Below are positions 134 through 15,600 of a DNA stretch of 15,964 nt, piece after piece. Each line of letters opens with the position of its first letter. The stretch's first letter is position 1. The notes under the pieces are model-generated. The model was not told the origin of the DNA. It searched no databases and saw nothing but the letters and a program-made list of their open reading frames with translations. The translations under genes and the position numbers were made by a program. This DNA comes from Rhodospirillales bacterium (GTDB lineage: Bacteria > Pseudomonadota > Alphaproteobacteria > Rhodospirillales > Casp-alpha2), in the NCBI GenBank assembly GCA_018664265.1, contig JABJOR010000516.1, positions 1-15,964 on the forward strand, written 5' to 3'.

Positions 134-883
134 CTAAATATAGCCATTATATTGCATTGGAACGACGGCGCGATGCATCCACTCAATGCATGAAATGAAA
201 TCAAAAACGGGCAGACCGGTCTCTTTATTCACATCTGCGGCATACGGTGGGAAAGATGTGCACTCAAGAAGCACAGCCCCTATATTTAGATCTTGGACGC
301 GGGCGCGTGAAATACCGTTTAAAATATCATCACGTAGCTCATCTGTTTCGAGGGTGGTACCGGTTGCGCACATACAAATGGAATTGAAGGCAACAGAATT
401 GTCCAGTCCTACAAGTGTAATACGATCAGACATATCTACGTTTACAGCCGAAAAAAATTCAGTTGATAACAGCTTCGCTGAAGCCGTAACAACCGCGATT
501 GATTGATCCGGCCGTAGCATCTGTCGAATAATCGGAATCATCATCAACGGGGATGTCATCACCGGGATACTGACTGATTTTGCTATAACTTCCTGAATTA
601 GCGAGAAGAAACCACAGCACATAGCAATGGCCCGGACGCCGGCACGTTCAAGTTCCTGAGCGGCATTGATACACACCTGCACCTCTGGCGTATAACTCCC
701 GTCTTCACAGGTTAATGGGGGATAAGGATTATCTTCTAGTTCGGGGATCTGACGTAGCAGGACAGGAAATGGATATGTGGTAGCATTCCCAACGTCGCCG
801 GGCGGCATTGGAAATCGTTTATTATCGAACATCAAAATGCCGATACTGTATCCTTGGAATGAGTGACCACCTTCGACAATCAT
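134..883 (-). CDS. Asp/Glu/hydantoin racemase superfamily protein
   Basis: A 249-residue protein with the two-cysteine layout of the aspartate/glutamate racemase superfamily (amino-acid racemases, hydantoin racemase, maleate isomerase, arylmalonate decarboxylase). The first half ends a strand in AMCCGF (Cys89/Cys90). The second half carries ECTSFPPYA (Cys208), where the second catalytic cysteine is expected. It is cytoplasmic, with no signal peptide. I chose the ATG at 883 because GAAGGG (896-891) sits seven bases upstream. An ATG at 889 and a TTG at 898 are in frame but poorly spaced. It follows the Mo oxidoreductase gene by 26 bases and is the third gene of that operon. The superfamily is clear. 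Whether it racemises an amino acid or isomerises or decarboxylates a diacid cannot be read from the sequence. EutA of ectoine loci and NicE of nicotinate loci belong to the same superfamily. Confidence 0.82.
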   Translation of the reverse strand: MIVEGGHSFQGYSIGILMFDNKRFPMPPGDVGNATTYPFPVLLRQIPELEDNPYPPLTCEDGSYTPEVQVCINAAQELERAGVRAIAMCCGFFSLIQEVIAKSVSIPVMTSPLMMIPIIRQMLRPDQSIAVVTASAKLLSTEFFSAVNVDMSDRITLVGLDNSVAFNSICMCATGTTLETDELRDDILNGISRARVQDLNIGAVLLECTSFPPYAADVNKETGLPVFDFISCIEWMHRAVVPMQYNGYI

Positions 884-909
884 ATTCATACCCTTCAAAT
901 CAGCTACCG

Positions 910-2964
910 TTACCGTATTCTCTCCACTTTGACCGCGACGCCTTTCTGAACAGGGAAGCCATCAATAGGATCAAGAATATCGTCGTGAGTCAGGACATTG
1001 ATATTGGCCTCTTTCCAACCGTGGGTGGCTTGCAAGACACCGGGAATAATCTCTTGGCGAGATACGATTTTAACAGGAATTTCTATGCTTCCGATTGCCG
1101 AAGACAGCTTGACCGTCTCACCGTCGGTAATGCCGCTTCCATCTGCATCATCGGGGTGCATTTCGACCTGCGGCCCTGGAACTTCTGCGCGGAACCGCCC
1201 TACCCCACGATAGCTACTGTGATAACTAAGGTGATTACGCGCACCCGTAATTAATGAGAATGGATATTCCGGTTTTGGGCTACGGATATAGTACGGAGCC
1301 TTATATTCCCCAACCTCTTCATACCCGTTTGCGACCAAATAAGAAGATGCAAACTCGACTTTACCCGAGGGCGTAGTCAGAGGCCTGTGTTGCCATTTTT
1401 TGTGCTTGATGGCCTGATACTGAACGGCTTTTGATGTGTTTTGCAAATCCTTGAAATCAACATCTGTGCTTTGAAGCAACCATTCGTTCAGAACGCTTTC
1501 GTCTTCCCAAGGAAAATGCTCTCCAAAATCCATGCGGTGAGCTATGTCATGCCAGAACTGGTATTCATCCTGCACACCGGGAATGGATTGAACCCGTGTG
1601 CTCATACTGACCGACTGAATGGCTGCGTAGGTGTACAGCTCCGTACGCTCAAGAAATGTTGCAGCAGGCAAGATATAATCTGCCAGCTGTGCGGTTTCAG
1701 TCATGAACAATTCACGCACCACGAACAAATCAAGTGCTGACAGTGCTTTGCGAACTTTTTCCGAATTTGGATTGGTCATGACCGGGTTGGCCGCCGTCAT
1801 GATCATGCCTCTGAGAGAATACGGATCACCAGTCAGGATCGCATCGAGCGCCGTCATGGTGTTGCATTCCTGACGGAAGTCATGAAGCACCGGGAATTTC
1901 TCTCCGTCGACCCGTTTGAGTTGCTGCAGGGGGATTTCTTCATAAAGCGCCAGAGATTGCTGCCCAAGGCCATCGGCCTGCAAGGAGCCGCCTTCCATAT
2001 CAAAGGAGCCGCACAGTGCATCCAGATAGGCAATGGCACGTGTGTTGTTGACGCCGTTTTCATAATGCTCAACACCATTTCCCGTATACTGCGCAACACG
2101 GGAGCCGGCCTGATGCATAAGCGCCGCAACCTTGATAACGGTTTGCGCCGGAACACCGGTTTGCGCCTCGACGGCCTCCGGGGTAAAGTCCTTGGCATAG
2201 ACGGCAACTTTATCAAATCCAACGGTATAGTTTTTGACAAAATCCTTGTCGTACCAATCATTGGCGATCAGCTGATGTGCCAGCCCCCAGGCCAGTGCGC
2301 CATCAGTTCCGGGCTTTGGTTTTACATGGATGTCAGCCTGACGGGCAATTGTGGAAAGCCGGGGGTCGATAACAACCAAAGTCGCGCCACGCTCGCGACC
2401 TTTTAAAATCTGCCGGGTCAGGGGTGGGTGAGCCGCTGGTGGGTTTGCCCCCCACAATATCATACAGCGTGAGTTACGGAAATCCGGTTTGGGCCAACAC
2501 CCATAGACAAGCGACCAACCAATTTCACGCGTGCAAAAACATAATGAATCCACGGATAAATAATTTGGTGTTCCAAGTGCCCGGCAAAATCGTTTTGCTA
2601 AATCTTCCTGTTGATTAAAGGAAGTGGCTTCCCCCTTCCAGACGGACATGGTTTCAGGGCCATAGTTCGATTGCAGGTCGCCAACACGATCTGCAATTTC
2701 ATCCAGTGCCTGTTCCAGATCAATTTCCTTCCAGCCAGAACCAACCTTTTTTAGCGGGCGCATCAAACGATCAGGGTGATTGACAATTTCAACAGCGCCA
2801 CCGGCCTTGGAACAAATCCGGCCCTGATTCCAGGGATGATCAGGGTAGCTTTCTATATCGGAAATCTGTCCACTTACATCACGGTGCACCGTAATGGCGC
2901 AGTGGTTATCACACATCCGGCAAAACGTATTGACCGGGGAAAAGTTTCGCGACATCTCAGTCAT
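910..2964 (-). CDS. Molybdopterin (Mo/W-bis-MGD) oxidoreductase, catalytic subunit
   Basis: A 684-residue member of the DMSO-reductase superfamily. An N-terminal [4Fe-4S] site has the spacing C15-x2-C18-x3-C22-x28-C51, followed by Lys53, which usually helps electron transfer to the cofactor. The probable metal ligand lies in SLCFCTREIGW. Cys142 fits the usual ligand position, and Cys144 makes an uncommon CxC. The middle holds cofactor-binding segments such as LWGANPPAAHPP and VVIDPRLSTIARQAD. The C-terminal molydopterin-dinucleotide-binding domain includes LITGARNHLSYHSSYR. There is no Tat leader, so it should act in the cytoplasm. The ATG at 2964 follows GGGAGAGAG. It overlaps the ferredoxin gene by eight bases, so the two are translationally coupled and probably form a complex. 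Relatives include thiosulfate/polysulfide reductases, formate dehydrogenase-like enzymes and acetylene hydratase. The substrate is not predictable. An NAD(P)/FAD protein at 14222-15502 may complete the chain. Confidence 0.93.
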   Translation of the reverse strand: MTEMSRNFSPVNTFCRMCDNHCAITVHRDVSGQISDIESYPDHPWNQGRICSKAGGAVEIVNHPDRLMRPLKKVGSGWKEIDLEQALDEIADRVGDLQSNYGPETMSVWKGEATSFNQQEDLAKRFCRALGTPNYLSVDSLCFCTREIGWSLVYGCWPKPDFRNSRCMILWGANPPAAHPPLTRQILKGRERGATLVVIDPRLSTIARQADIHVKPKPGTDGALAWGLAHQLIANDWYDKDFVKNYTVGFDKVAVYAKDFTPEAVEAQTGVPAQTVIKVAALMHQAGSRVAQYTGNGVEHYENGVNNTRAIAYLDALCGSFDMEGGSLQADGLGQQSLALYEEIPLQQLKRVDGEKFPVLHDFRQECNTMTALDAILTGDPYSLRGMIMTAANPVMTNPNSEKVRKALSALDLFVVRELFMTETAQLADYILPAATFLERTELYTYAAIQSVSMSTRVQSIPGVQDEYQFWHDIAHRMDFGEHFPWEDESVLNEWLLQSTDVDFKDLQNTSKAVQYQAIKHKKWQHRPLTTPSGKVEFASSYLVANGYEEVGEYKAPYYIRSPKPEYPFSLITGARNHLSYHSSYRGVGRFRAEVPGPQVEMHPDDADGSGITDGETVKLSSAIGSIEIPVKIVSRQEIIPGVLQATHGWKEANINVLTHDDILDPIDGFPVQKGVAVKVERIR

Positions 2965-3439
2965 TATTCTCTCTCCCGAACATAACAGCTAGCCTGTTGT
3001 CGTGCTGGTTGCGATTGGCAAGGGGAACGGCTTCTTCGCTCTCGAACTCAAGGGCGCCGGGGAAGCAATGCTGAACACATTTTGGATTACCGCCGCAAAG
3101 ATCACATTTGAAACAGGTCAATTTTTCCGTATCAAAATTGATGGCGCCGAATGGGCAAGCGAGCATGCACATTTTGCAACCTATGCAGCGATTGGCATCG
3201 ATGAGAACAGCGTCTGTATCGGCGCTGCGGCTTATTGCTGCTGCCGGACAAACTTCCATGCACCATGCTTTGCGACAGTGCACGCATGTCATGGGAATAC
3301 AGGCTGATTTGTCAGGATAGTGATTTACACTAATGGCGGAGTTTCGGTGATCATAATCTCCTGTGCGATGGAAAGCACAGGCATTTTCACAATGACCACA
3401 AGCAACACACTTGCGGGGGTCCATTGTAACAATTTTCAT
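2957..3439 (-). CDS. 4Fe-4S ferredoxin-type electron-transfer subunit (four clusters)
   Basis: A 160-residue polyferredoxin of the DmsB/HycB type. Four cysteine groups are visible: C11-x2-C14-x2-C17-x3-C21; C52-x2-C55-x4-C60-x3-C64; C85-x2-C88-x2-C91-x3-C95; and C109-x2-C112-x8-C121-x3-C125. This predicts four [4Fe-4S] clusters forming a wire from the Mo enzyme to a partner. I chose the ATG at 3439 because a near-perfect GGGGAGG (3451-3445) lies five bases before it. A GTG at 3460 is in frame but would put this Shine-Dalgarno inside the gene. No signal peptide or membrane segment is present, so the complex should be soluble and cytoplasmic. It is the first gene of the minus-strand operon, and the palindrome at 3507-3518 lies 68 bases upstream. 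Its last eight bases overlap the Mo subunit gene. Function as the electron-transfer subunit of that enzyme is inferred from gene order and the cluster pattern. Confidence 0.92.
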   Translation of the reverse strand: MKIVTMDPRKCVACGHCENACAFHRTGDYDHRNSAISVNHYPDKSACIPMTCVHCRKAWCMEVCPAAAISRSADTDAVLIDANRCIGCKMCMLACPFGAINFDTEKLTCFKCDLCGGNPKCVQHCFPGALEFESEEAVPLANRNQHDNRLAVMFGRENND

Positions 3440-3488
3440 TTTTTCCTCCCCATTTTTCACCTTTTCATACAGGAGTGCCTTTTAAATT

Positions 3489-3518
3489 CTTGACGGTCAA
3501 GCAAAACTGTGATCACAG
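3489..3518. promoter_or_regulatory. Operator-like inverted repeats in the divergent promoter region
   Basis: CTTGAC-G-GTCAAG (3489-3501) is followed by the perfect 12-bp palindrome CTGTGATCACAG (3507-3518), midway between the divergent start codons at 3439 and 3598. The same TTGAC box and the same palindrome recur at 8841-8870 before the transporter operon, with nearly the same spacing (12 and 11 bases between TTGAC and CTGTG). Repetition of this arrangement before two related transcription units supports one regulator acting at both. The spacer-free TGTG-ATCACA form is not the CRP/FNR site (TGTGA-N6-TCACA). It could suit a GntR- or MarR-type dimer, but that is a guess. I see no good -10 box at normal distance from TTGAC. 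A possible -10 (TATAGT) lies at 3541-3546 for the rightward operon. Confidence 0.65.
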
Positions 3519-3597
3519 ATAGTCTATGGAAATAAATACATATAGTTTACGATATAGCAACGCTTAAATTCGTTCCTGCAATTATTTGGATTTATCA

Positions 3598-4689
3598 ATG
3601 GATAATAACAATTGGATTAGTGACCCAAAAGCTGGCGCACAAAATTTATTGGCTGATTGTGTCGGGTTAAAACCTGGAGAAACCCTTTTACTTGTTCGCG
3701 AAGATGCCCGGCATGGAAAATATGACGAGGCTGCCGGGGACGTTGTCGCAGAAGTTGCCGCGGAAATGGGTGCCCATGTTTTTCAGATTTTATCCCCTCC
3801 AATGTCCGGCCCAGAATCTTTCCCCGATGTTCTTGGCGGTGCCCTGCAACAAGCAGACCACGCAGTTTTTTTCAGCGGCATAGGGGATCAGATACGATTT
3901 AGCAAATATACCAGTAAGCAAACAGCGAGCATGTGTTACGCCCTTGATGTTGATCTTTTGGGGTCTCCATTTTGCTCCGTCCCGCACAGTCTTATGAAAA
4001 AAGTTGCGGCTTCGCTTCGACAACAATTGTCCCAAGGTGGAGAATGGAACATTACGTGCCCTCTGGGCACGGATCTAAAGGGCTATCTGGAACCCTATCT
4101 TGTTGAAGATAAAGACCCTAATGCCTTCACTGTAGAGTTATTCCCGTTGGGGATTTTGCCGCCAATTTCAGCGTCGACCATGAATGGTAGGGTGGCGACA
4201 AAATGGATTATGTCTACACAAAACCGTCAGTATGAACCCAGTGGTATGGTTCTTGATGATCATGTGTTTATTGATATCCAGCAAGGCCGATTGACTGAAA
4301 TTAGCGGCCCAGCCTCCTTATCTGAAAAAGTTCAACAGCATTATAGTCACGTTGCAGGCTTGTTCGATATTGATCGAGACTATATCCATTCATGGCACAC
4401 CGGAATTCACCCAAAGACTCATTACACGGGCAGTGTCCATGATGACATGACACGTTGGGGAACTGTGACATTCAACAGTCCGCGTTATACCCATATCCAC
4501 ACATGTGGTGACTATCCTCCCGGTGAAATCGCCCTTGTCATGATTGATGCGACGATCACCTTGAATGATGAACCTCTCTGGCAGGATGGCAAATTTGTAT
4601 TTTTGGAAAGATCCGAGGTCGTGTCATTGTTGAAAGATTACCCGGGCCATGAAGGTGCATTTGAAATGTTGTGGAATATTGGACTCTGA
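3598..4689 (+). CDS. M29 aminopeptidase / 2,5-dihydroxypyridine dioxygenase-like metalloprotein
   Basis: A 363-residue protein whose general plan resembles the fold shared by M29 aminopeptidases and the non-haem iron enzyme NicX (2,5-dihydroxypyridine 5,6-dioxygenase). The N-terminal part has NLLADCVGLKPGETLLLVRED. The C-terminal part has FPLGILPPISASTMNGRV, then a histidine-rich region (His264, His267, His271, His275, His299, His301), then a tail ending LNDEPLWQDGKF. Two M29 metal positions look altered: the glutamate of the PTGEVF-type motif is replaced in PLGILPP, and the late HxD motif reads M315-I-D317. The classic di-metal aminopeptidase site is therefore probably absent, and a different metal site from the histidine cluster is possible. 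The ATG at 3598 has only a weak TTGGA upstream; an in-frame TTG at 3586 is the alternative. It is the first gene of the rightward operon, 80 bases after the palindrome. Family assignment is moderate; the reaction is unknown. Confidence 0.6.
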   Translation: MDNNNWISDPKAGAQNLLADCVGLKPGETLLLVREDARHGKYDEAAGDVVAEVAAEMGAHVFQILSPPMSGPESFPDVLGGALQQADHAVFFSGIGDQIRFSKYTSKQTASMCYALDVDLLGSPFCSVPHSLMKKVAASLRQQLSQGGEWNITCPLGTDLKGYLEPYLVEDKDPNAFTVELFPLGILPPISASTMNGRVATKWIMSTQNRQYEPSGMVLDDHVFIDIQQGRLTEISGPASLSEKVQQHYSHVAGLFDIDRDYIHSWHTGIHPKTHYTGSVHDDMTRWGTVTFNSPRYTHIHTCGDYPPGEIALVMIDATITLNDEPLWQDGKFVFLERSEVVSLLKDYPGHEGAFEMLWNIGL

Positions 4690-4691
4690 AC

Positions 4692-4698
4692 GGGGAGG
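4692..4698 (+). promoter_or_regulatory. Ribosome-binding site that fixes a TTG start
   Basis: GGGGAGG lies three bases after the upstream stop codon and five bases before TTG at 4704. It is the strongest Shine-Dalgarno near this junction. No ATG in the frame is suitably placed, so the TTG is the likely initiator. Confidence 0.6.
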
Positions 4699-4703
4699 TT
4701 ATC

Positions 4704-5597
4704 TTGTCGCAAAAGACAATTCTGCTGATTGGTTTGTCTCTATCAAAACTTGATCTTCTGGACACGTTTCAGTCAGTCAATCATCGACTTTTAGCTTACA
4801 TAACCCAAGAAGATGGTACGTCCTTTACAGATCAGACACAAGACCGGGAAATTGAGGCTCACCATACTTTGGGTGCCTGGCTAAAAGATGTAGACGTTAT
4901 TATTCCATTGATTTCTGCTAACGATAGCGCTGACCACGCCACAGTAATGCAAACGTACCAGCGCATCACTCTGGCGCTTCAGGCTTTTCAGGAACCGCAA
5001 CAGGCCCCCCCCCTTCAGCCGTGCTGGATTGATACTGTTGATCCTGATGCGTCGTCTCCGGAGTTGCGCGAGATGTATGAATCGCTGGGCGGCGTTCATG
5101 GCAAAATACATAATCTCTACAAAGCGTTCTCCCTGCAGCCAGCACCCATGATAGCAGCAGATCAACATTACCGAGCTATTCTTCACAATGATGCCAACCA
5201 GTCTGATCCCTGGTTTTTGGAATTGCTATCCTCCCAAGTGGCAATTTTAACAGGGTGCACTTACGCGCTCGCCAATCACGGCGCCAATTTCAAAAAGCTA
5301 TTGGGCGACCCGGCTTTGGGCGAAGACATGCTTGGTGCCGTTCGAGAAGGCGATCTTGAAAACTCCAATTTATTCAATGCAAAGCAATCGGCCTTTTTGA
5401 AGTTTGGTGAAAAACTTACGCTTTGCCCGGATCATATGGATCAGACAGATATTGACGATCTTAGAATCACGGGGGCTACAGACACAGAAATTCTGGAAGC
5501 CGTACAGGCAATAGCCTGCTTTTCTTACTGGACCCGTTTTATTAATGGCCTGGGAATTCAGTTGGGTGACGAGACAATCGGGCGGCTAGATTTATAA
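4704..5597 (+). CDS. Carboxymuconolactone decarboxylase/AhpD-like protein with an extra N-terminal domain
   Basis: A 297-residue protein in two parts. Residues about 105-297 follow the AhpD/CMD 'peroxidase-related enzyme' pattern: ELREMYESLGGVHGKIHNLYKAFSLQP, the helix with the redox motif, and the closing RFINGLGIQLGDE. The usual CxxC-x3-H motif reads C185-T-Y-A188-x3-H192, so the second cysteine is lost and the disulfide peroxidase cycle is unlikely. Residues 1-100 (starting SQKTILLIGLSLSKLDLL) are additional to the usual family length of roughly 180-200 residues. I do not recognise them; they could be a small alpha/beta domain. The two parts meet at a nine-C homopolymer (5005-5013). The start is TTG at 4704, set by GGGGAGG; an upstream in-frame GTG at 4671 lacks one. 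The gene begins 14 bases after its neighbour. It may be an isomerase- or decarboxylase-like step rather than a peroxidase. Confidence 0.75.
   Translation: MSQKTILLIGLSLSKLDLLDTFQSVNHRLLAYITQEDGTSFTDQTQDREIEAHHTLGAWLKDVDVIIPLISANDSADHATVMQTYQRITLALQAFQEPQQAPPLQPCWIDTVDPDASSPELREMYESLGGVHGKIHNLYKAFSLQPAPMIAADQHYRAILHNDANQSDPWFLELLSSQVAILTGCTYALANHGANFKKLLGDPALGEDMLGAVREGDLENSNLFNAKQSAFLKFGEKLTLCPDHMDQTDIDDLRITGATDTEILEAVQAIACFSYWTRFINGLGIQLGDETIGRLDL
5005..5013 (+). repeat. Nine-C homopolymer inside the CMD-like gene
   Basis: An uninterrupted run of nine cytosines encodes the Ala-Pro-Pro linker (codons 101-103) between the unknown N-terminal domain and the CMD-like domain. Tracts of this length can slip in replication or be miscounted in sequencing. 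The reading frame is intact as given. Confidence 0.7.
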
Positions 5598-5613
5598 TCA
5601 GGGGAGATGCATT

Positions 5614-7023: not shown

Positions 7024-7041
7024 CACTATAGGACCACCACG

Positions 7042-7731
7042 ATGTATAAACTTTTCGCTTATCCAAATTCATATGCTATGAGCGCCCATGCAATTTTGGA
7101 AGAAACTGGCGCGCCCTATGATGTGCACTGGGTCCAGATTTTCACCGACAGCCCAGACCCCGCATTTCTGGTAGCCAGCCCCCATGCCCGGGTGCCGGCA
7201 TTGCAAACAGAGGAAGAGACAATCTTTGAGACAGGGGCTATTGCCCTCTATCTTGCAGAAGAACATCCCGAATCAGATCTGCTTATCAGGGAAAACATGC
7301 CAGGGCGTGCCACATTCTTACAATGGCTGCATTATCTGGCTTCGACATTACAGCCGGATGTCATCATTCAATTTCACCCTGAGCTTTATTTCCCAGATGA
7401 TGAGGACGCGCAGAAATGTCTTTTGCTTGCTTCCATGGGGCGTCTAAGCAGTGTCATGGATGTTATCGAAAATACTTTAGCGGTTGGTCCTTATTTTTGC
7501 GGCGAGAAAAGAACTATCCTGGATTACCTGTTTGTCATGCAGGCGATCTGGCCGGAAATTTTCCCGACATCCGCTGCGGACTATCCAAATATCGATCGGC
7601 TCATAAAAACACTTTTGGAACGCCCAGCCGTTACCCGCGCATACGGTCAACATATTCAGGAACAACGTGCCCCCATTAAAGCGGATGGCAGTCCTGCACC
7701 CGATGGTTACGGATTACACAAAGAGACGTAA
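7042..7731 (+). CDS. Glutathione S-transferase family protein
   Basis: A 229-residue protein with standard GST architecture. The N-terminal thioredoxin-fold domain (about 1-78) contains YPNSYAMSAHAILEETG, the cis-proline in VPAL (Pro52), and the Glu63-Thr64 pair in ETGAIALYLAE that normally binds the gamma-glutamyl group of glutathione. The helical C-terminal domain carries the N-capping box T158-I-L-D161 in GPYFCGEKRTILDYLF. There is no beta-class catalytic cysteine; Ser10, Tyr11 or Ser14 could activate the thiol. It is cytosolic. It starts 18 bases after the methyltransferase gene, with AGGA upstream of the ATG, and is the fourth gene of the operon. In a catabolic operon it may use glutathione to open, isomerise or de-thiolate an intermediate, rather than detoxify. 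That role is inference. Confidence 0.9.
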   Translation: MYKLFAYPNSYAMSAHAILEETGAPYDVHWVQIFTDSPDPAFLVASPHARVPALQTEEETIFETGAIALYLAEEHPESDLLIRENMPGRATFLQWLHYLASTLQPDVIIQFHPELYFPDDEDAQKCLLLASMGRLSSVMDVIENTLAVGPYFCGEKRTILDYLFVMQAIWPEIFPTSAADYPNIDRLIKTLLERPAVTRAYGQHIQEQRAPIKADGSPAPDGYGLHKET

Positions 7732-7752
7732 TTTGCTTGAAAGGAAGAAACT

Positions 7753-8808
7753 ATGGCTCCCGCACTCTCATACGGCCCTCTTTTTTGTGATCTGGATCTG
7801 GATAAGCCGGGGCGGCGTATTGGCGAAATTCTGCTCACTCACTCAGATAACATCCATTGCTATGGCACGATTCCTATTCCTATAACTGTTATTAAGGGCG
7901 GTGACGGCCCAACTGTTTTGCTTTCCGGCGGCAATCATGGCAACGAATATGAAGGGCAAATACTGTTAAGACGGCTGATAAATATCCTGGAGTCAAAAGA
8001 TGTTAATGGTCGGCTTATTATCATGCCGTCGTTGAATTTCCCGGCTGTTAAAGATATTCAGCGCGTATCTCCACTGGATCAGGGTAATTTGAATCGTTCA
8101 TTTCCCGGAGCACCAGATCAGGGGCCGACCAAGGCAATTGCCGGTTTCATTACTAACCATCTATTGCCTATTGCCGACTATGGACTGGACCTTCATTCCG
8201 GTGGAGCCCATGCGAATTTCGTAAATTGTGGGTTTTTGTGTGCCTGCGATGATCCAGTGCTGCATAAGAAAAATATTAAGCTGGCCGAAGCCTTTGGTGC
8301 ACCATACACCGTCGTTTCTCCCCTAGGTAATACAGCCGATGGCTATGATCCTGTCGCCCATACAATGGGTGTCCCATTCTTATCCTGTGAGTTGGGAGGG
8401 AATTGTGGAAGTTCTGTTGAAACACTTGATGTTGGCTGGCGCGGAATACTTGGGTTCCTTGTAGAAACAGGAATTCTCAATGAAAACCACACATTAATTC
8501 AACAGATTGAAAACCGGAAACACGGTACGCGTTACCTCATGGCAAAAGATCACCATGCGAATGTAATGGCGACACACTCAGGCCTGATGGAGCCTTTGGT
8601 CGAATTGGGTGACGTGGTGAGCGCGGGGCAGCCTGTTGCTAAAATTCATTCCATGCATGGTGCGCTGGATATCGTTCAAACGGCGAAATCCTCTCATGAT
8701 GGTATTATTGCAATTCAACGAACGGGGTGCCTGGTAGAAACTGGCAACTATGTGTGCAGTGTATATTCAGAAATTAAACACGACGCATTAATTTCTTTGG
8801 TTGAATAG
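7753..8808 (+). CDS. Zinc-dependent deacylase, aspartoacylase/succinylglutamate desuccinylase family (DoeB/EutE-like)
   Basis: A 351-residue M14-type amidohydrolase. Zinc ligands are His62 and Glu65 in GGNHGNEYEG, and His148 in DLHSGG. Substrate-carboxylate residues lie in NLNRSFPG (Asn114, Arg115). The probable catalytic base is Glu213 in CELGG. The C-terminal beta-rich domain (about 270-345) contains VSAGQPVAKIH. The sequence pattern (GGNHGNEYEG, PSLNFPAV, SPLDQGNLNRSFPG, DLHSGG) is closest to the DoeB/EutE branch, which removes acetyl from N-alpha-acetyl-diaminobutyrate in ectoine breakdown. No other ectoine genes are visible, so a different N-acyl amine or amino acid may be the substrate. 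GGAAG precedes the ATG at 7753, 21 bases after the GST gene. It is the last gene of the rightward catabolic operon; I found no convincing terminator after it. Confidence 0.9.
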   Translation: MAPALSYGPLFCDLDLDKPGRRIGEILLTHSDNIHCYGTIPIPITVIKGGDGPTVLLSGGNHGNEYEGQILLRRLINILESKDVNGRLIIMPSLNFPAVKDIQRVSPLDQGNLNRSFPGAPDQGPTKAIAGFITNHLLPIADYGLDLHSGGAHANFVNCGFLCACDDPVLHKKNIKLAEAFGAPYTVVSPLGNTADGYDPVAHTMGVPFLSCELGGNCGSSVETLDVGWRGILGFLVETGILNENHTLIQQIENRKHGTRYLMAKDHHANVMATHSGLMEPLVELGDVVSAGQPVAKIHSMHGALDIVQTAKSSHDGIIAIQRTGCLVETGNYVCSVYSEIKHDALISLVE

Positions 8809-9110
8809 CCAAAACCTATCCTATTGCGTAAGGTTAATTTCTTGACATACTAGTCAACTGTGATCACAGTGATATTGGTTAACAAAACAGGGGAGTTAAG
8901 AGAATATAACCTTGGTTGAGATGATTAGAACGAAACAATTTTGTCAGTATCAATTCACGACATGCGTTATTTTAAACCTCCCAGCCAAATCACCTTTGTA
9001 AATATCTTCTAAAACTCCTTCAGTCATTGCATTACGCGGCAATGCAGGTGTACGGTTATTTAAATATACAACCATTAGATGCAAAGATAAGCAAAAATTA
9101 GGGAGAGACC
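8809..9110 (+). other. Leader region of the transporter operon
   Basis: These 302 bases contain no supported gene. They hold the operator-like repeats at 8841-8870, a purine-rich GGGGAG at 8890 without a convincing start codon behind it, and a small inverted repeat TGCATT/AATGCA (9028-9033, 9041-9046). The Shine-Dalgarno GGGAGAG lies just before the ATG at 9111. The 5' leader would be about 200 bases if transcription begins near the operator. Confidence 0.55.
8841..8870. promoter_or_regulatory. Second operator-like element with TTGACA box and perfect palindrome
   Basis: CTTGACA (8841-8847) and GTCAA (8853-8857) lead straight into ACTGTGATCACAGT (8857-8870), a perfect 14-bp palindrome. Its 12-bp core is identical to 3507-3518. 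The TTGAC-to-palindrome distance is conserved within one base between the two sites, while the GTCAA half has moved. TTGACA could be a -35 box with the palindrome covering the spacer, which would suit a repressor, but no good -10 box follows at 16-18 bases. The element lies 241 bases before the binding-protein gene and just after the catabolic operon. Confidence 0.65.
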
Positions 9111-10703
9111 ATGTCAAATTTCATTAATTATTACATGTCCCAACTTACAAGAGGGGCTGTTTCAAGGCGCGAATTTATCGGCAGAATGACTGCTGCAGGT
9201 GTATCCGCTTCACTTATACCTTCTCTTTTGTCCAGCGCAGCCAATGCTGCCACACCTAAAAAGGGTGGAAAGATTACGGTTGGCGTAGAAGCCGCGCAAA
9301 ATGTAGATTCCCTTGACCCAACAAAATATTATGGAACAGCTGATTATTTGCGCGCTTTCTCAGTTTATGACCTCTTGGTCAATCGTGCTCCGGATTTGCG
9401 CCCAATGCCATGGCTTGCGACATCATGGGATGTTAACGACAGTGCCACAGAGTGGACTTTCCAGCTTCGCAAAGGCGTAACCTTCCATAATGGCAAAGAT
9501 TTCACGGCCGATGATGTTATCTATTCGTTCTCACGACATCTCACAGAAGCCACGGAATCACCCGCCAAGGCTTACCTGTCCCAAATCGTGGAAATGAAAA
9601 AGAACAGCAAGCATTCCGTAACATTTGTTCTGTCATCCCCTAACGCCGACTTCCCGATTGTGCTTTCTGATACCCGCGCACACATCTCTCAAGACGGACA
9701 AGAGGACTTTTCCAGCACAACATCCGGTACAGGCCCCTTCAAGGTCAAGAAATTCAAGGCTGGTTCTGTCTATATTCTTGAACGCAATGAAAACTATTGG
9801 GGTGATGATGGCCCTTATGTTGACGAGATTGAAACCGTTAGCATCGGTGACATCACTATGCGTACGAACGCTCTGATGTCTGACGATATCAATGTTCTTC
9901 TGGAACTTGATCCGAAAGCAGCATCCCTGGTCAGGAATAATGACCAACTTGATCTGCTCAATGCCAAGAGCGGGAAACACATTAATGTTGCGATGATGCT
10001 GGATCGTTCTCCAACCAATAACAATGATCTTCGTTTGGCCATGAAATACGCGATTGATCGCGAAAAAATCATTAAAAATGTTTTCAAGGGCCTTGGACAT
10101 ATAGGTAACGATCATCAGATTTCACCGATCGATCCATTCTATTGCAGTGATATTCCACAGCGCCCGTATGATCCGGACAAAGCCCGCTTCCATATCAAGA
10201 AAGCTGGTCTGGAAAACACGCCGATTGATTTCTACACATCTGATGTTCCTGCATCAGGAGCAATTGCTGCTTCTGAGGTTTATCAGCAATCAGCAAAAGC
10301 TGGCGGCGTAAATCTAAATCTGATTCGCCCACCAGCAGATGCATATTGGTCATCAGCCTGGATGCAGAAACCTGTTTGCGTTTCCGGTTGGGACGCCCGT
10401 CCTGTTCCTGATCTTATCCTGAGCATCGCGTGTAAAGGCGGCGCATCTTACAATGAGACTGCCTGGAATAACGAGCGGTTTGATAAACTGCTTTTGGAAG
10501 CACGCGGAGTAACGGATTTCACAAAACGCAAAGAGATGTATTGTGAAATGCAAACCATGCTCCAGGATGATGGTGGTGTCATTATTATGGCGTTCTCAGA
10601 TTACCTCGATGCTAAACGCAGTGAGGTAAAGGGAATTACACCGCATGCATCTGGCCCACTTGGCTTCTACCAATTCGCACGCACTGTGTGGATCGACAGC
10701 TGA
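9111..10703 (+). CDS. ABC transporter substrate-binding protein (peptide/opine/nickel type, family 5), Tat-exported
   Basis: A 530-residue periplasmic binding protein of the SBP_bac_5 family. The leader has a twin-arginine motif S-R19-R20-E-F-I, a hydrophobic stretch (about 26-43) and a likely cleavage after ANA (residue 46), so it is exported folded by Tat. Family signatures include [75 protein letters not shown] and [15 protein letters not shown]. It should capture the substrate and deliver it to the permeases encoded next. GGGAGAG stands three bases before the ATG at 9111. It is the first gene of the importer operon and is followed by a strong hairpin (10741-10774). The palindrome shared with the catabolic operons suggests that the ligand is their substrate. 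Family members take up peptides, but also opines, sugars and quaternary compounds, so the ligand is open. Confidence 0.95.
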
Positions 10704-10740
10704 GTATAAATAAAATATGCAAAATAAAGCTTCTAATATT

Positions 10741-10774
10741 TTCCGCCGTTCCTTGCTTCACAGGAACGGCGGAA
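10741..10774 (+). terminator. Strong hairpin between binding-protein and permease genes (attenuating terminator or mRNA stabiliser)
   Basis: A perfect 12-bp stem, TTCCGCCGTTCC (10741-10752) with GGAACGGCGGAA (10763-10774), has a ten-base loop. It is followed only by GTTTG, so it lacks a full U-tract and probably terminates partially or protects the upstream mRNA. Such hairpins are common after binding-protein genes, where they raise binding protein relative to permease. Confidence 0.75.
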
Positions 10775-10820
10775 GTTTGCAAGCTGTAGCTTTCATCTAT
10801 TTGATAAATTTCTGCCCGAT

Positions 10821-11774
10821 ATGAATATCACACATCTCATTCTTCGCCGTCTTGGTATTGGTGTAGCAACGGTTTTTATCGTTTCATTGCTGGTATTTGT
10901 CGGCACTGAAATACTACCCGGCGACATCGCACATGCTATCTTAGGACAGGGTGCGACACCTGAGCTTGTTGCCAATATACGCGCTCGACTTGGCCTGGAT
11001 GATCCGGCACATATTCGTTATTTTCGTTGGCTTGGCAATCTCATCACCGGTGATCTTGGAACCTCTCTGGCGAACGGGGGAAGTATTGCCGATGACATTC
11101 GTGAGCGCGCCGGAAACACATTTATGCTTTCTGGCATAACCGCATTAATCGCGGTTCCGCTTTCATTGTTGCTTGGGCTTATCGCCTCTACGCGCCCGGG
11201 CGGCATTGTTGATAGAATAATTTCAAGCACCACACTGGCATTGATCTCGGTCCCTGATTTCTTGATCGCTGTGCTGCTGGTGATGTTCTTCTCGGTTTAT
11301 ATGGGCTGGCTTCCGTCTATTTCCAGCCTGCGAGGTGGCGAGGATATTTTCAAGATTGTCCGCGCGCTAACATTGCCCGTCATAACACTGGTCTTTACCG
11401 TTCTTGCGCATATGACACGTATGACACGAACCGCAGTGCTGAATGTGCTGGCGTCCCCTGCTATCGAAATGGCGTTTTTAAAAGGTGTGCCAAAGTGGCG
11501 TATTATTCTGCTTCATGCGCTGCCAAATGCCATAGCGCCGATCATCAACGTAATTGCACTTAATCTTGCCTATTTGATCAGTGGCATCGTCGTCATTGAA
11601 ACCATGTTTAATTACACTGGTCTTGGGCGATTGATGGTGCAGGGTGTTATCACCCGGGACATCCCGCTGGTTCAGGCATGCGCCATGATTTTCTGCTCGA
11701 TCTATATTCTTTTGAATATGTCGGCAGATATTATCTCAATTGTAGCAAACCCTCGCATCAGGCATCCGAAATGA
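10821..11774 (+). CDS. ABC transporter permease, DppB/OppB type
   Basis: A 317-residue inner-membrane protein. It begins with the typical LILRRLGIGVATVFIVSLLVFV first helix, then a periplasmic segment PELVANIRARLGLDDPAHIRYFRWLGNLITGDLGTS characteristic of DppB-type permeases. Further helices lie at about 101-123, 138-162, 181-200, 239-262 and 283-306. The EAA loop that docks on the ATPase is at about 216-235 (E216...G222...LP235). It forms a heterodimeric channel with the next protein. No clear Shine-Dalgarno precedes the ATG at 10821, which lies 46 bases after the hairpin. The stop codon overlaps the next start as ATGA, so the two permeases are translationally coupled. General function is certain by family; substrate is unknown. 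Confidence 0.93.
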   Translation: MNITHLILRRLGIGVATVFIVSLLVFVGTEILPGDIAHAILGQGATPELVANIRARLGLDDPAHIRYFRWLGNLITGDLGTSLANGGSIADDIRERAGNTFMLSGITALIAVPLSLLLGLIASTRPGGIVDRIISSTTLALISVPDFLIAVLLVMFFSVYMGWLPSISSLRGGEDIFKIVRALTLPVITLVFTVLAHMTRMTRTAVLNVLASPAIEMAFLKGVPKWRIILLHALPNAIAPIINVIALNLAYLISGIVVIETMFNYTGLGRLMVQGVITRDIPLVQACAMIFCSIYILLNMSADIISIVANPRIRHPK

Positions 11775-12631
11775 CCACAGAAACGAAAAAAAGTGCAATT
11801 CTGGATCTGTATGAAGATCTGACACCAACGGCAATTTTATGTATATTTTGCCTTGTAGCGATTGTCTTCGTATCTGTTTTTGCGCCTTTCATAGCACCGT
11901 TTGATGAAGCTGAAATTATTTCCGACGAGAGTTTTTTGTCTGCTGGGGACGAGTCCTTGATTTTGGGAAGTGATTATCTTGGACGCGATATGCTAAGTCG
12001 AATTTTTTATGGCACCCGGGTAACGGTCTATATCTCTGTTACCATAGCCACGCTGGCATTTTTTGTTGGCAGCATGTTTGGTTTTCTGGCAGCAACACTT
12101 GGTGGAATTTATGATGCAACGCTCAGCCGTGTTGTTGATGCACTTATTGCGTTTCCATCGATTATGCTGGCGATGATTCTTGTAACAGCGCTCGGCCCTT
12201 CCATTCCTGTTTTGATTATTACAATTGCGTTCATTGATTCAACACGGGTTTACCGTGTTGCACGTGCTCTTGCCATGGATATCATCGTTCAGGATTATAT
12301 CGAAGTTGCCAAAGTTCGCGGTGAAGGCTACGGCTGGATTATGTGGCATGAAATACTGCCCAATGCATTTGCACCGCTGGCGGCGGAATTTGGTATTCGC
12401 TTCACGTATGCAATTTTGTTTATCTCTGCGCTGAGCTTTTTAGGGCTGGGAGTGCAGCCACCGCACGCCGATCTTGGCGCCTTGGTGCGAGAAAATATGC
12501 AGGGGCTTCTGTATGGTACAGGGGCACCTATCTACCCGGCTTTATGCATTGCCATGATAACGATTTCCGTAAACCTTATCGTGGATTGGTTCCTGAAGCG
12601 CAGTGATGCGAGTTTACCTGATGAGTTCTGA
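11771..12631 (+). CDS. ABC transporter permease, DppC/OppC type
   Basis: A 286-residue inner-membrane protein with the DppC hallmark LGSDYLGRDMLSRIFYGTR (about 65-83) after the first membrane helix (about 21-44). Later helices lie near 88-112, 128-156, 205-228 and 253-273. The EAA loop, EVAKVRGEGYGWIMWHEILPN, is at about 178-198. It pairs with the DppB-type protein. I chose the ATG at 11771 because it shares the ATGA overlap with the upstream stop and gives the normal DppC N-terminus; a longer frame from 11678 would run deep into the upstream gene. Its 3' end overlaps the ATPase gene by about 11 bases. Confidence 0.93.
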   Translation: MTTETKKSAILDLYEDLTPTAILCIFCLVAIVFVSVFAPFIAPFDEAEIISDESFLSAGDESLILGSDYLGRDMLSRIFYGTRVTVYISVTIATLAFFVGSMFGFLAATLGGIYDATLSRVVDALIAFPSIMLAMILVTALGPSIPVLIITIAFIDSTRVYRVARALAMDIIVQDYIEVAKVRGEGYGWIMWHEILPNAFAPLAAEFGIRFTYAILFISALSFLGLGVQPPHADLGALVRENMQGLLYGTGAPIYPALCIAMITISVNLIVDWFLKRSDASLPDEF

Positions 12632-14273
12632 TCAAATGCACAACGATATCTTACAAGTCCGTAATCTTTGTGTTGACGCTGTACCGCGTAAGGGCAAACC
12701 TTTTGCAATTGTTAACGATATATCATTTTCAGTTGAACCCGGTAAGGTCGTGGCTCTGATCGGTGAATCCGGCTCCGGCAAGACAACGATATCCCTCGCT
12801 TGCATGGCCTATGCCAAGCCGGGGTGCGTTATTACAAGTGGCAGCGTTGAACTTGACGGCATGAAAATGTTGGAGCTCAATCAAAGTGAGAAGCAACTCG
12901 CACGCGGGGTTAATATCTCGTATGTTGCACAAAGCGCTGCTGCATCGTTTAACAGCGCGCTGACAATAAACAGGCAGGTCACAGAAATACCCGTTATCAA
13001 GAACCTCATGAGCCGTGAAGAAGCCGAGAAAAAAGCCATAGAGCTGTACAGGCAACTCGACCTCCCCGATCCAGAGAATATCGGTAAACGCTATCCTCAT
13101 CAGGTGAGTGGTGGGCAGTTGCAGCGTCTGATGGCTGCCATGGCTATGATCTGCGACCCCAAACTTTTGATACTTGATGAGCCGACAACGGCTCTCGATG
13201 TGACTACCCAGATCGAAGTGTTGCAGGCGTTCAAGAATTTGATACATCAAAAGAATACTTCGGCAATTTATGTCAGCCATGATCTGTCTGTCGTTGCACA
13301 AATTGCCGATGATATTTTGGTGCTCAAGGATGGAAAAATGGTTGAGTATGGTCCTGTTGAGCAAATAGTCTCAAATGCCAAGCAGGATTATACACGCATG
13401 CTGATTGACGCTGCGCACGTCATGCCCGATACAATTCACCCTGCACCCGTAAATACAAAGCAAGAAACTCCGATGTTTGAAGCCAATAATATCACAGCTG
13501 GTTACGGCATCAATCACGCATCAATCGTTTTAAAAGATGTATCCCTTCGTGTTAACAAGGGTGAAACCGTTGGTGTCATTGGCGAATCAGGTTCAGGGAA
13601 AAGTACTCTGGGGCGTGTTATATGTGGTTTGATGTCACCGAAAATTGGCGACCTAATTCTCGAAGGTGCTGCGATACCTGGTGCGCTCAAACAACGGTCT
13701 CTGGAACAACTGCAACGAATTCAAATTGTTTTCCAAATGGCGGATGTCGCCTTAAATCCGCGCCATCGTATCCAGAAAATACTACAACGGCCGTTAGAAT
13801 TCTATTTTGGCATGTCAGGGCAAGAGGCTAAAAACCGGGTCATTGAATTACTGGAACTCGTCGAGTTGCCGGCATCCTTTATGGACCGTTACCCGCGAGA
13901 GCTATCGGGAGGTCAGAAACAACGTGTCAATCTGGCGCGTGCACTGGCGGCCAAGCCTGATTTGATTATTTGCGATGAAATCACATCGGCACTCGACACC
14001 ATTGTTGCTGAAGCTATTTTAGATTTGCTACAGGATTTACAAGACAGGCTGGGCATCACCTACATTTTTATTTCACATGATATTTCCACAATCGCAAAGA
14101 TAGCCGATACCGTCGCCGTCATGCGTTTGGGGGAAGTCGTGGAATATGGATCGACAAGCGAAATTTTAACTCCGCCACATCATGAATATACGGAATTACT
14201 GCTCGATTCTGTTCCGGATCTTCACCCAGGCTGGCTTGAGAAAGTCATGGCAAAACGATTGGAATCGGCATAA
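12621..14273 (+). CDS. ABC transporter ATP-binding protein, fused DppD-DppF type (two nucleotide-binding domains)
   Basis: A 550-residue cytoplasmic ATPase carrying both NBDs of a peptide-type importer. NBD1: Walker A GESGSGKTT (48-56), Q-loop Gln104, signature VSGGQ (162-166), Walker B LLILDE (182-187), H-loop His220. NBD2: Walker A GESGSGKST (321-329), Q-loop Gln372, signature LSGGQ (428-432), Walker B LIICDE (448-453), H-loop His486. All catalytic motifs are intact, so both sites should hydrolyse ATP. Possible starts are GTG 12603, ATG 12606, ATG 12621 and ATG 12636. I prefer 12621, which gives a short overlap with the permease gene; none has a strong Shine-Dalgarno, fitting translational coupling. 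The last 52 bases overlap the 3' end of the opposing oxidoreductase gene. It completes a full importer of binding protein, two permeases and a double ATPase. Confidence 0.93.
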   Translation: MSSDQMHNDILQVRNLCVDAVPRKGKPFAIVNDISFSVEPGKVVALIGESGSGKTTISLACMAYAKPGCVITSGSVELDGMKMLELNQSEKQLARGVNISYVAQSAAASFNSALTINRQVTEIPVIKNLMSREEAEKKAIELYRQLDLPDPENIGKRYPHQVSGGQLQRLMAAMAMICDPKLLILDEPTTALDVTTQIEVLQAFKNLIHQKNTSAIYVSHDLSVVAQIADDILVLKDGKMVEYGPVEQIVSNAKQDYTRMLIDAAHVMPDTIHPAPVNTKQETPMFEANNITAGYGINHASIVLKDVSLRVNKGETVGVIGESGSGKSTLGRVICGLMSPKIGDLILEGAAIPGALKQRSLEQLQRIQIVFQMADVALNPRHRIQKILQRPLEFYFGMSGQEAKNRVIELLELVELPASFMDRYPRELSGGQKQRVNLARALAAKPDLIICDEITSALDTIVAEAILDLLQDLQDRLGITYIFISHDISTIAKIADTVAVMRLGEVVEYGSTSEILTPPHHEYTELLLDSVPDLHPGWLEKVMAKRLESA

Positions 14274-15502
14274 AGGCCGGGAAACAATTTCATCTGCAAC
14301 TCTTGTTCCAAATCATCCGGTCTTTGTTCTCCCAGATACCGATGATATCGAATATATGGTCTGAGCATGCCCAGAATGCCAACCCCACCCGCATGACCGA
14401 GTGAAATTCCCCCGACAGGCACGCCGCCATCAAGAAAAATACTGAGGTACGAGCCGTCTTTCTGATCATACCATGTCCAGGCTTCAAAGCCTTCGGTTTG
14501 CGTAAACTTGCCAATCGATGCTATCACCAACCCGAATAATTCCGTAACATTCATATTCAAAGAGCCTTGATAGGCAACCTGATCACCAGTCAGGTTCTGA
14601 CCAGCGATAGCCCCTTGTTCTACTGCACAGGGCCACAAAGCGCGAACCTCATGGGAATTGCCACAAGACGTACGTGCAGCAGCAACATCACCTGCGGCAA
14701 AAACATCTTGAACAGTGGTTTGCATAAAATCATTAACCAATACACCGCCGTCGATTTCAATGTCGCTCCCTTCCAGAAATTTTGTATTAGGCCTAACTCC
14801 GACGGCAGAAACAATTTTATCCACCACAATGGAGTGAGTATCAGAGAAAATAACTCGTAGCGTGCCATCGGCATTCGGGATTATTTTTTCTGGCATGGTG
14901 CCTTCCATGAGCGTGATGCCAAATGTATTGATGCGTTCTTTCAGGGAATCTCGTGCATGATCATCAAGGTCGCGACGCATGATGACAGAACGCACACAAA
15001 GTGTTGTCTCCATGCTGCATTGCGCAGCAGCCCAGGTAGCTTGCATGGCGATAAAACCACCACCCATGATCAAAACACGCTTTTGGCTCTCAAATGCATC
15101 TTTGAGGGCGAGCGCATCTTCCATGGTCCATATATTATGTATGCCGGAGGATTCAATCCCTAGTATTTCTGGAATAAAAGGCAAGGATCCAGAGCATATA
15201 AGTAGTCGGTCATATGCAAGGATTTGTTTGGTGTTTAAATAAATTTTTTTGGAAGTCGTATCAAGTTCGGTAACTTGACCAATCAGGATTTCTGCGTTTA
15301 ATTCTTCTACGTCGGAATCGTGACGAATGAAAAGGTTTTCCATATCCACTCGATCCTTCAAGTAGTAGGGAAGTTGTACCCGCGAATAAGGCTTGGGCAA
15401 TTCTTTTGATATGACTCGGACCTGAGAAACTGTATCAATTTTGCGAAAAGCTTCAAGTGCACTTAATCCTGCAGCACTATTACCGATAATAATAACCTTC
15501 AT
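14222..15502 (-). CDS. NAD(P)/FAD-dependent pyridine nucleotide-disulfide oxidoreductase family protein
   Basis: A 426-residue flavoprotein. The FAD Rossmann motif is IIIGNSAAG (4-12). RVQLPYYL (41-48) is typical of NirB/rubredoxin-reductase-like proteins. The NAD(P) site is MGGGFIA (146-152), and the second FAD motif VFAAGDVAA lies at 267-275. There is no CxxxxC redox pair, so it should act as an NAD(P)H:electron-carrier reductase. The C-terminal 110 residues (from about 315) are family-specific. The ATG at 15502 follows GGGTGGG; longer frames to 15571 lack support. Flavoproteins of this kind commonly accompany Mo enzyme and four-cluster ferredoxin pairs, so I infer that it links 910-3439 to NAD(P). 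It lies 10 kb away and is separately transcribed, so this is tentative. It converges on the ATPase gene with a 52-base overlap. Confidence 0.9.
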   Translation of the reverse strand: MKVIIIGNSAAGLSALEAFRKIDTVSQVRVISKELPKPYSRVQLPYYLKDRVDMENLFIRHDSDVEELNAEILIGQVTELDTTSKKIYLNTKQILAYDRLLICSGSLPFIPEILGIESSGIHNIWTMEDALALKDAFESQKRVLIMGGGFIAMQATWAAAQCSMETTLCVRSVIMRRDLDDHARDSLKERINTFGITLMEGTMPEKIIPNADGTLRVIFSDTHSIVVDKIVSAVGVRPNTKFLEGSDIEIDGGVLVNDFMQTTVQDVFAAGDVAAARTSCGNSHEVRALWPCAVEQGAIAGQNLTGDQVAYQGSLNMNVTELFGLVIASIGKFTQTEGFEAWTWYDQKDGSYLSIFLDGGVPVGGISLGHAGGVGILGMLRPYIRYHRYLGEQRPDDLEQELQMKLFPGLYADSNRFAMTFSSQPG

Positions 15503-15551
15503 TGGCCCACCCAATTTATCATTACGAATAAATAAGTTCATATTATCCATG

Positions 15552-15557
15552 ATTATA
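15552..15557 (-). promoter_or_regulatory. Possible -10 box for the flavoprotein gene
   Basis: On the minus strand TATAAT reads from 15557 to 15552, about 50 bases before the ATG at 15502, inside AT-rich DNA. No good -35 box lies at 17 bases, so an activator may be needed. Confidence 0.35.
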
Positions 15558-15600
15558 AAGGTAAACGCCATTCAAGTGAGTAATAATTTTCTATCGAATG

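Follow-up and report, generated by a model that had tools for sequence, protein, structure and literature searches.

Proteins of the MttB superfamily, including MtyB and MtcB, have been described as demethylating methylated amines and handing the methyl groups on to a corrinoid protein, and the account of Ruegeria pomeroyi in PMC12478193 reports that MtgC and MtgD are required for methionine synthesis and for glycine betaine demethylation alike. Here we describe a locus encoding a further member of this superfamily (MttB1), which lies with a peptide-type importer and other catabolic genes on a 15,964-nucleotide (nt) contig of a Rhodospirillales bacterium (JABJOR010000516.1), hereafter the window. 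It resembles the MtgBCD system, as presented in that account, in the combination in aerobic marine alphaproteobacteria of an MttB-superfamily protein, a candidate stand-alone corrinoid protein and predicted later demethylation by flavin adenine dinucleotide (FAD) enzymes. It differs in having the peptide-type importer, a separate MttB subfamily, and genes for NicX-like, AhpD-like, glutathione S-transferase (GST), DoeB-like and racemase-family proteins under a common operator.

Three other described enzymes have relatives in or near this gene set. NicX, the 2,5-dihydroxypyridine 5,6-dioxygenase, has His265, Ser302, His318 and Asp320 as iron ligands, as stated in PMC7910607. It is the best structural match of the NicX-like protein of the window, which belongs to the NicX dioxygenase fold at a sequence identity of 14–15%; H271, H303, H305 and D321 are invariant in the NicX-like alignment, as a set of residues not superposed on the NicX ligands, and there are no nicotinate genes within the window. 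DoeB, the N-acetyl-diaminobutyrate deacetylase, is of the same hydrolase family as the DoeB-like protein and a solved DoeB is among its closest structures (E 5e-54), but the window protein scores under the DoeB NCBIfam cut-off (Table 1) and the window shows no further recognisable ectoine gene. GbcA, the glycine betaine monooxygenase, is the nearest NCBIfam model (148.2 bits) of a Rieske gene linked to the operator in relatives, which falls far under the GbcA cut-off of 670; there is no such gene in the window.

A rare operator and the genes beside it

The window is the whole of one contig (C336) of a 3.28-Mb genome bin that is 78% complete, and has 13 intact genes (open reading frames): an importer, a five-gene catabolic operon, a divergent molybdenum (Mo) enzyme operon, and a flavoprotein gene. 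Leftwards from the divergent promoter are the genes for a 4Fe-4S protein, a molybdopterin oxidoreductase and an Asp/Glu racemase family protein; rightwards are those for the NicX/M29-fold protein, the AhpD-like protein, MttB1, the GST and the DoeB-like hydrolase, followed by the importer genes (family 5 binding protein, two permeases, fused double ATPase). A previous sequence-only reading had proposed that the importer and catabolic operons form one uptake-and-catabolism unit with a motif shared by operons, and both points hold: the gene content is conserved between families, and the palindrome CTGTGATCACAG is present in both promoters, where TTCTTGAC is paired with ACTGTGATCACAG (Table 1) against an expectation of 0.00 in 200 shuffles. 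The unit is, however, larger than the window. The source genome has CTGTGATCACAG at 4 places (and the reversed control pattern at 0), two of them in the window, one before a second MttB-family gene (MttB2, locus L123), and one at locus L124, where genes for a thiamine pyrophosphate (TPP) decarboxylase, SoxB and, at the contig end, a fragment of SoxA run leftwards on one side of it and a HisC-like aminotransferase gene runs rightwards on the other; SoxB and SoxA are named here by likeness to the SoxB and SoxA of a relative. Another contig (locus L128) carries what is apparently the other end of the MttB2 gene, then a gene for an 829-residue dimethylglycine dehydrogenase (DMGDH)-like protein, and a GntR gene.

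The same 12-mer was counted in six further genomes, five of a Rhodobacteraceae-type family together with G013, and is present at 5, 5, 3, 5, 8 and 4 places (control 0). All 30 sites were inspected, and 27 adjoin genes for NicX-like, SoxB, Rieske, binding, GntR, DppB, DoeB-like, MttB2, GbcA-like, HisC-like, AhpD-like, GST or TPP proteins, one of these being a weak case beside a 32% GbcA-like gene (L154). A longer 16-base form, AWCTGTGATCACAGWT, is found in 5 of 295 genomes of the family, four of which are carriers of the cluster (G874, G890, G1029 and G1093), with one place in G891; G945 is also a cluster carrier, yet its sites do not fit the 16-base form. The operator is rare in these genomes and tied to the gene set, and the genes probably form one operator-controlled regulon. 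Sites flank a GntR gene in five loci (L107, L110, L115, L151 and L161), and the source-genome GntR is 39% identical to that of L110. From the position of its gene between operators, a GntR-family protein probably controls the regulon at CTGTGATCACAG.

Conservation in relatives

The co-occurrence of these genes in other genomes, which the sequence-only reading had put forward as a check, is evident: much the same set is present in the Rhodobacteraceae. A scan based on MttB1, with one genome per species, gave 13 loci. Seven are Roseovarius/Ruegeria-type loci (L012–L017 and L019) with the order LacI, NicX-like, AhpD-like, MttB1, an AraC gene being inserted once, and three of the seven (L012, L015, L017) have a family 5 binding protein gene close by. 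In Roseovarius aestuarii there is, besides the intact L012 copy, a second NicX-like/AhpD-like/MttB1 set that is present only in pieces (L021:8917-11175). Another locus, L009, is from a Rhodospirillales metagenome-assembled genome, and has AhpD-like, MttB1, GST, TPP enzyme and binding protein genes in this order with a divergent HisC-like gene, and the operator in three promoters; there is no NicX-like gene on its 6-kb contig.

With the NicX-like protein of Roseovarius as query, 37 of the 295 genomes of one family, taken as Rhodobacteraceae, gave matches, at 43 places, of which 40 were retrieved, the one in G349 is L040, and those in G973 and G893 were left out. Four of the resulting loci (L107, L110, L115 and L117) have NicX-like, AhpD-like, GST, importer, GntR and Rieske oxygenase genes, and in three of them there are also MttB1 and SoxA/SoxB-like genes, neither of which is in the L117 stretch. 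The binding protein is 56–62% identical in these four loci, and the permeases and ATPase 59–65%; the GST is 47–69% identical to those of the relatives. Six further cluster stretches all carry MttB2 and the DMGDH-like gene, and five of the six carry the DoeB-like gene.

In Alisedimentitalea scapharcae (source Anadara broughtonii), one plasmid region has 10 of the 13 window genes and four operators. It also encodes GntR, a second MttB-family protein, a protein of the phytanoyl-CoA dioxygenase family, sarcosine oxidase subunits and, in the place of the DMGDH-like protein, an FAD oxidoreductase. A second plasmid region, in Leisingera thetidis, has 8 of the 13 genes and five operators, without MttB1 and without a DoeB-like match at E 1e-10. 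The Mo enzyme, 4Fe-4S protein and flavoprotein are in neither region. The racemase is in both (65% and 70% identical), placed between the FAD oxidoreductase and MttB2 genes, and in L149 (65%), and is likely to be a core gene by this sequence comparison.

MttB1 and the NicX-like protein

PF06253 covers residues 5–469 of the 469 of MttB1, placing it in the MttB superfamily. It scores under the cut-off of the pyrrolysine trimethylamine methyltransferase equivalog TIGR02369 (295.8 vs 525 bits), and its reading frame is open without an internal stop codon. Identities are 43–62% within its subfamily and 24–27% to the source-genome paralogs compared. The source genome has 17 MttB-family matches including that of the window, and two of these, on C10 and C486, seem to be opposite ends of a single gene.

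A Protein Data Bank sequence search with the single NicX-like protein gave 0 matches at E 1, and one with a NicX-like profile gave weak and apparently unrelated matches only (best E 2.5e-5). PF26233 is precomputed for some NicX-like relatives; a family-library scan of five of these, with a library that lacks PF26233, gave no match. The protein is present in 10 of 385 genomes of the class and 4 of 398 of the phylum, the source being included in each count. Its AhpD-like partner has about 110 extra N-terminal residues (window 4671-5020) that are absent from ten other aligned family members.

Proposed pathway and alternatives

We propose, with a probability of roughly 0.55, that the genes of the window belong to a dispersed regulon for the uptake and stepwise demethylation of an amino-acid betaine, meaning a trimethylated alpha-amino acid. 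Gene content, conservation, and the operator and its rarity are direct observations; a repressor, the sequence of the steps and all of the activities are inferences. The family 5 binding protein and Dpp-type ATP-binding cassette (ABC) complex would import the betaine, and MttB-family methyltransferases would pass methyls from the quaternary nitrogen to a shared MtgC-type corrinoid protein encoded elsewhere, and from there to folate. DMGDH-like and SoxBDAG-like FAD enzymes may then take off the remaining N-methyls; the 829-residue protein has mitochondrial dimethylglycine dehydrogenase as its nearest relative (E 3.5e-155), and the SoxA and SoxB of the relative score just below their subfamily cut-offs. 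The MttB, DMGDH-like and SoxA/SoxB families together suggest a chain from a trimethyl to a free amine; an aminotransferase and a TPP decarboxylase would suit an amino acid thereafter, and in the lineage of the window the HisC-like aminotransferase and TPP enzyme are the candidates for processing it. The NicX-fold protein with its AhpD-like partner could make an oxidative attack on a heteroaromatic side chain, by ring opening or sulfur removal, with the GST, DoeB-like hydrolase and racemase dealing with the product.

Several observations weigh against this reading. No corrinoid-protein gene was recognised within the window. Elsewhere in the source genome (contig C266) there is one MtgC-like stand-alone protein, which at 174.5 bits is below the TIGR02370 cut-off of 215.3; the same search was positive in 9 of 14 control genomes, and the neighbouring gene is one that we take for DUF1638. 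Sharing of a corrinoid protein is plausible, given this MtgC-like protein on another contig and the 17 MttB-family matches. Two carriers of the cluster lack MttB1, namely G874 (best match 28%) and G945 (26%), so the set can do without it; the idea that a GbcA-like Rieske enzyme simply replaces it was dropped because G890, G1093 and G1029 have both. Three of the 30 operator sites, all in G1029, are away from the gene set: one is by a LysE-type exporter gene, one is between a PF03601 gene and one for a GMC oxidoreductase, and the third is upstream of a dehydrogenase-like gene, about 430 nt before a product 93% identical to S-(hydroxymethyl)glutathione dehydrogenase. The Roseovarius-type loci carry LacI rather than GntR, which narrows any role of GntR as a fixed regulator of the module. 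The TPP enzyme, at 601.7 bits, is above the cut-off of 500 for the 5-guanidino-2-oxopentanoate decarboxylase subfamily, which argues for an acid like arginine rather than one like histidine. Finally, in a tree of 57 NicX-like proteins with two branches, loci linked to histidine utilisation (hut) genes are 7 of 39 in one branch and 1 of 18 in that of the window, whose own row is on a long branch with a less sure placement.

The genes could alternatively serve breakdown of an N-methylpyridinium compound of the homarine or trigonelline type, with MttB1 or a Rieske oxygenase taking the ring N-methyl, the NicX-like dioxygenase opening a hydroxylated pyridine, the GST isomerising, and the DoeB-like and racemase-family proteins finishing towards a dicarboxylate. 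The structural match to NicX and the Rieske oxygenases adjoining many NicX-like genes are consistent with such a route, and a racemase-family enzyme and GST would fit maleyl/fumaryl chemistry, from the roles of NicE and the zeta-class GSTs. We regard it as unlikely, given the low sequence similarity to NicX and the position of other NicX-like family members near hut rather than nicotinate genes, and because it leaves unexplained why the regulon also has MttB2, SoxBDAG and the DMGDH-like gene. A literature search on homarine found no paper on a homarine gene set.

Slightly less likely again is utilisation of peptides or N-acyl amino acids, in which the Dpp-type importer and DoeB-like deacylase are central, the other genes handle the freed amine, and demethylation is secondary. 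Dipeptide-binding proteins are among the nearest solved structures to the binding protein, and the DoeB-like gene is kept in most of the further cluster stretches and in one of the two plasmid regions; the constant companions, however, are demethylase-family genes, and the Leisingera thetidis region has no DoeB-like match. The sequence-only reading had left the substrate as either an N-methylated or an acylated amine, and the two MttB-family proteins, the DMGDH-like protein and the sarcosine-oxidase-like subunits encoded in the regulon appear to favour the former, with the frequency of the DoeB-like gene keeping the latter in view.

A second glycine betaine system, with MttB2, the DMGDH-like protein and the Sox enzymes running glycine betaine to glycine and the rest as hitch-hikers, seems improbable to us. 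Structures that bear the label glycine betaine methyltransferase are among the matches of MttB2 (E 6.5e-64), and the closest relative of the 829-residue protein is suggestive, but MttB2 is also close to the structure of an unspecified putative trimethylamine methyltransferase (E 2.2e-68), and such a system would have no need for the NicX-like, AhpD-like, GST, DoeB-like, racemase, aminotransferase or peptide-type importer genes, several of which carry the same operator. It is very improbable that the motif is merely a CRP-like site of general use and that the operons do not belong to one system, for although TGTGATCACA resembles two CRP half sites without a spacer, the motif has few places per genome, nearly all by the same gene set, its 16-base form is found in five of the 295 family genomes, and the sites flank the GntR gene in five loci.

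Substrate and a possible histidine link

Returning to betaine demethylation, the substrate is likely to be some alpha-N-trimethylated or otherwise quaternary amino acid. Our leading guess within this class, a tentative one, is a histidine betaine, either hercynine or ergothioneine. At 243.6 bits against a cut-off of 276.55, the HisC-like aminotransferase suits an amino acid with an imidazole ring, and the PF03601 membrane protein, whose usual family label is 'sulfate exporter', would fit a sulfur-bearing substrate. More doubtful, if conceivable, is the full proposal that an aerobic regulon, plasmid-borne in some marine bacteria, allows ergothioneine or hercynine to be eaten by demethylation rather than by trimethylamine release, in which a new MttB subfamily would hand the methyls to a corrinoid protein, and sulfur removal or opening of the (thio)imidazole ring would fall to an iron enzyme of the NicX fold and its AhpD-like partner. 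Literature searches on hercynine, ergothioneine or amino-acid betaine breakdown through MttB proteins found no description of this gene set.

Hut genes lie beside 8 of 57 NicX-like loci (two of the eight from one genus), where 0.34 are expected for one 9-kb hut cluster placed randomly in a 4.3-Mb genome; L078, the same record as L015, is counted among these 57 and omitted from the tree and from the expectation, L038 and L039 are from one genus, and L040 and L097 are from one genus. The histidine link is strong for the NicX-like family and weak for the branch of the window.

Three further observations concern the NicX-like loci and their neighbours. First, in the other branch seven loci (L038, L039, L042, L081, L082, L087 and L109) adjoin or lie close to genes for histidine utilisation, frequently together with an ABC importer for amino acids and a Rieske oxygenase, and with a 2-oxoglutarate oxygenase nearby or in the same stretch in L038/L039; these are possibly a separate pathway for a modified histidine. 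Second, L042, L094 and L106 have gene pairs like sulfopyruvate decarboxylase subunits (below cut-offs, as scanned in L094) in stretches that also carry HisC-like genes. Third, two PF03601 membrane proteins (L148:8785-9804 and L157:7732-8772) are 62.6% identical, one being beside a GbcA-like gene in one genome and the other behind an operator in another.

Organisation of the window

The features are listed in Table 1, in which the names of the permeases and ATPase come from their identity to annotated genes on plasmids. An inverted repeat (CCGCCGTTCC / GGAACGGCGG) stands at 10741-10774, behind the gene for the binding protein and ahead of that for permease 1; such repeats are common where a binding protein is produced in excess.

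Table 1. Features of the window, with coordinates, strand and supporting evidence
Feature	Position	Strand	Basis
Asp/Glu racemase family protein	134..898	-	PF01177 42.4 bits
Molybdopterin oxidoreductase	910..2964	-	PF00384, PF01568, PF04879
4Fe-4S ferredoxin-like protein, putative electron carrier of Mo enzyme	2957..3460	-	Fer4 families
-35-like TTCTTGAC and operator ACTGTGATCACAG, divergent promoter	3487..3518	+	palindrome 3507-3518
NicX/M29-fold metalloprotein, proposed non-heme iron dioxygenase	3586..4689	+	
AhpD/peroxidase-related protein	4671..5597	+	TIGR01926 79.7 bits, residues 119-297
MttB1, MttB-superfamily methyltransferase without pyrrolysine codon	5614..7023	+	PF06253 237.2 bits
Glutathione S-transferase	7042..7731	+	GST_N/GST_C
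DoeB-like AstE/AspA-family hydrolase	7753..8808	+	PF24827 116 bits; TIGR02994 248.3 bits, cut-off 402.7
Second TTCTTGAC and operator, ahead of importer operon	8839..8869	+	palindrome 8858-8869
Solute-binding protein, family 5	9111..10703	+	PF00496 261.9 bits
Dpp-type permease 1	10821..11774	+	62-65% identity to relatives' permeases
Dpp-type permease 2	11678..12631	+	56-61% identity to relatives' permeases
Fused double ABC ATPase	12603..14273	+	60-63% identity to relatives' ATPases
Convergent flavoprotein	14222..15571		nearest NCBIfam models PadH and NirB

The Mo enzyme and the flavoprotein, which the sequence-only reading had included in the locus, did not fare as well as the shared motif. At E 1e-120 the Mo enzyme is found in 1 of 150 genomes, the source itself, and on this ground we dropped it as a conserved part; plasmid records give 5 matches at 25–30% identity, and the protein database has three copies at 81–86%, without context. 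The start of its gene overlaps the 4Fe-4S gene, and 12 nt separate it from the racemase gene. Because the Mo genes are absent from the plasmid regions and the racemase is kept there, they look as if they were added, in this lineage, to an operon containing a core gene. The enzyme is below the cut-offs for formate dehydrogenase alpha (331.6 vs 666.25 bits) and thiosulfate reductase PhsA (289.6 vs 694). Among the 120 best matches listed, several of the named ones are from anaerobes, and relatives at 53–57% include proteins from Spirochaetales, Wukongibacter and Thermoleophilia; this is an anaerobe-type unit in a regulon otherwise found in aerobic marine bacteria. The flavoprotein gene overlaps the end of the ATPase gene by about 50 nt, has no operator in front, and was not seen in the clusters of relatives. 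With the 4Fe-4S protein, whose nearest model is PadI, it might provide an NADH link for the Mo enzyme.

Significance

The regulon appears to be a variant of the quaternary-amine demethylation systems, and methylated amino acids are a large and poorly mapped share of marine dissolved nitrogen. It supplies a defined gene set and a rare operator for finding further members, and Leisingera thetidis and Alisedimentitalea scapharcae are named strains in which the substrate is directly testable. Three uncharacterised groups (MttB1, the NicX-like protein and its AhpD-like partner) are tied to one pathway, and solving one would place the others.

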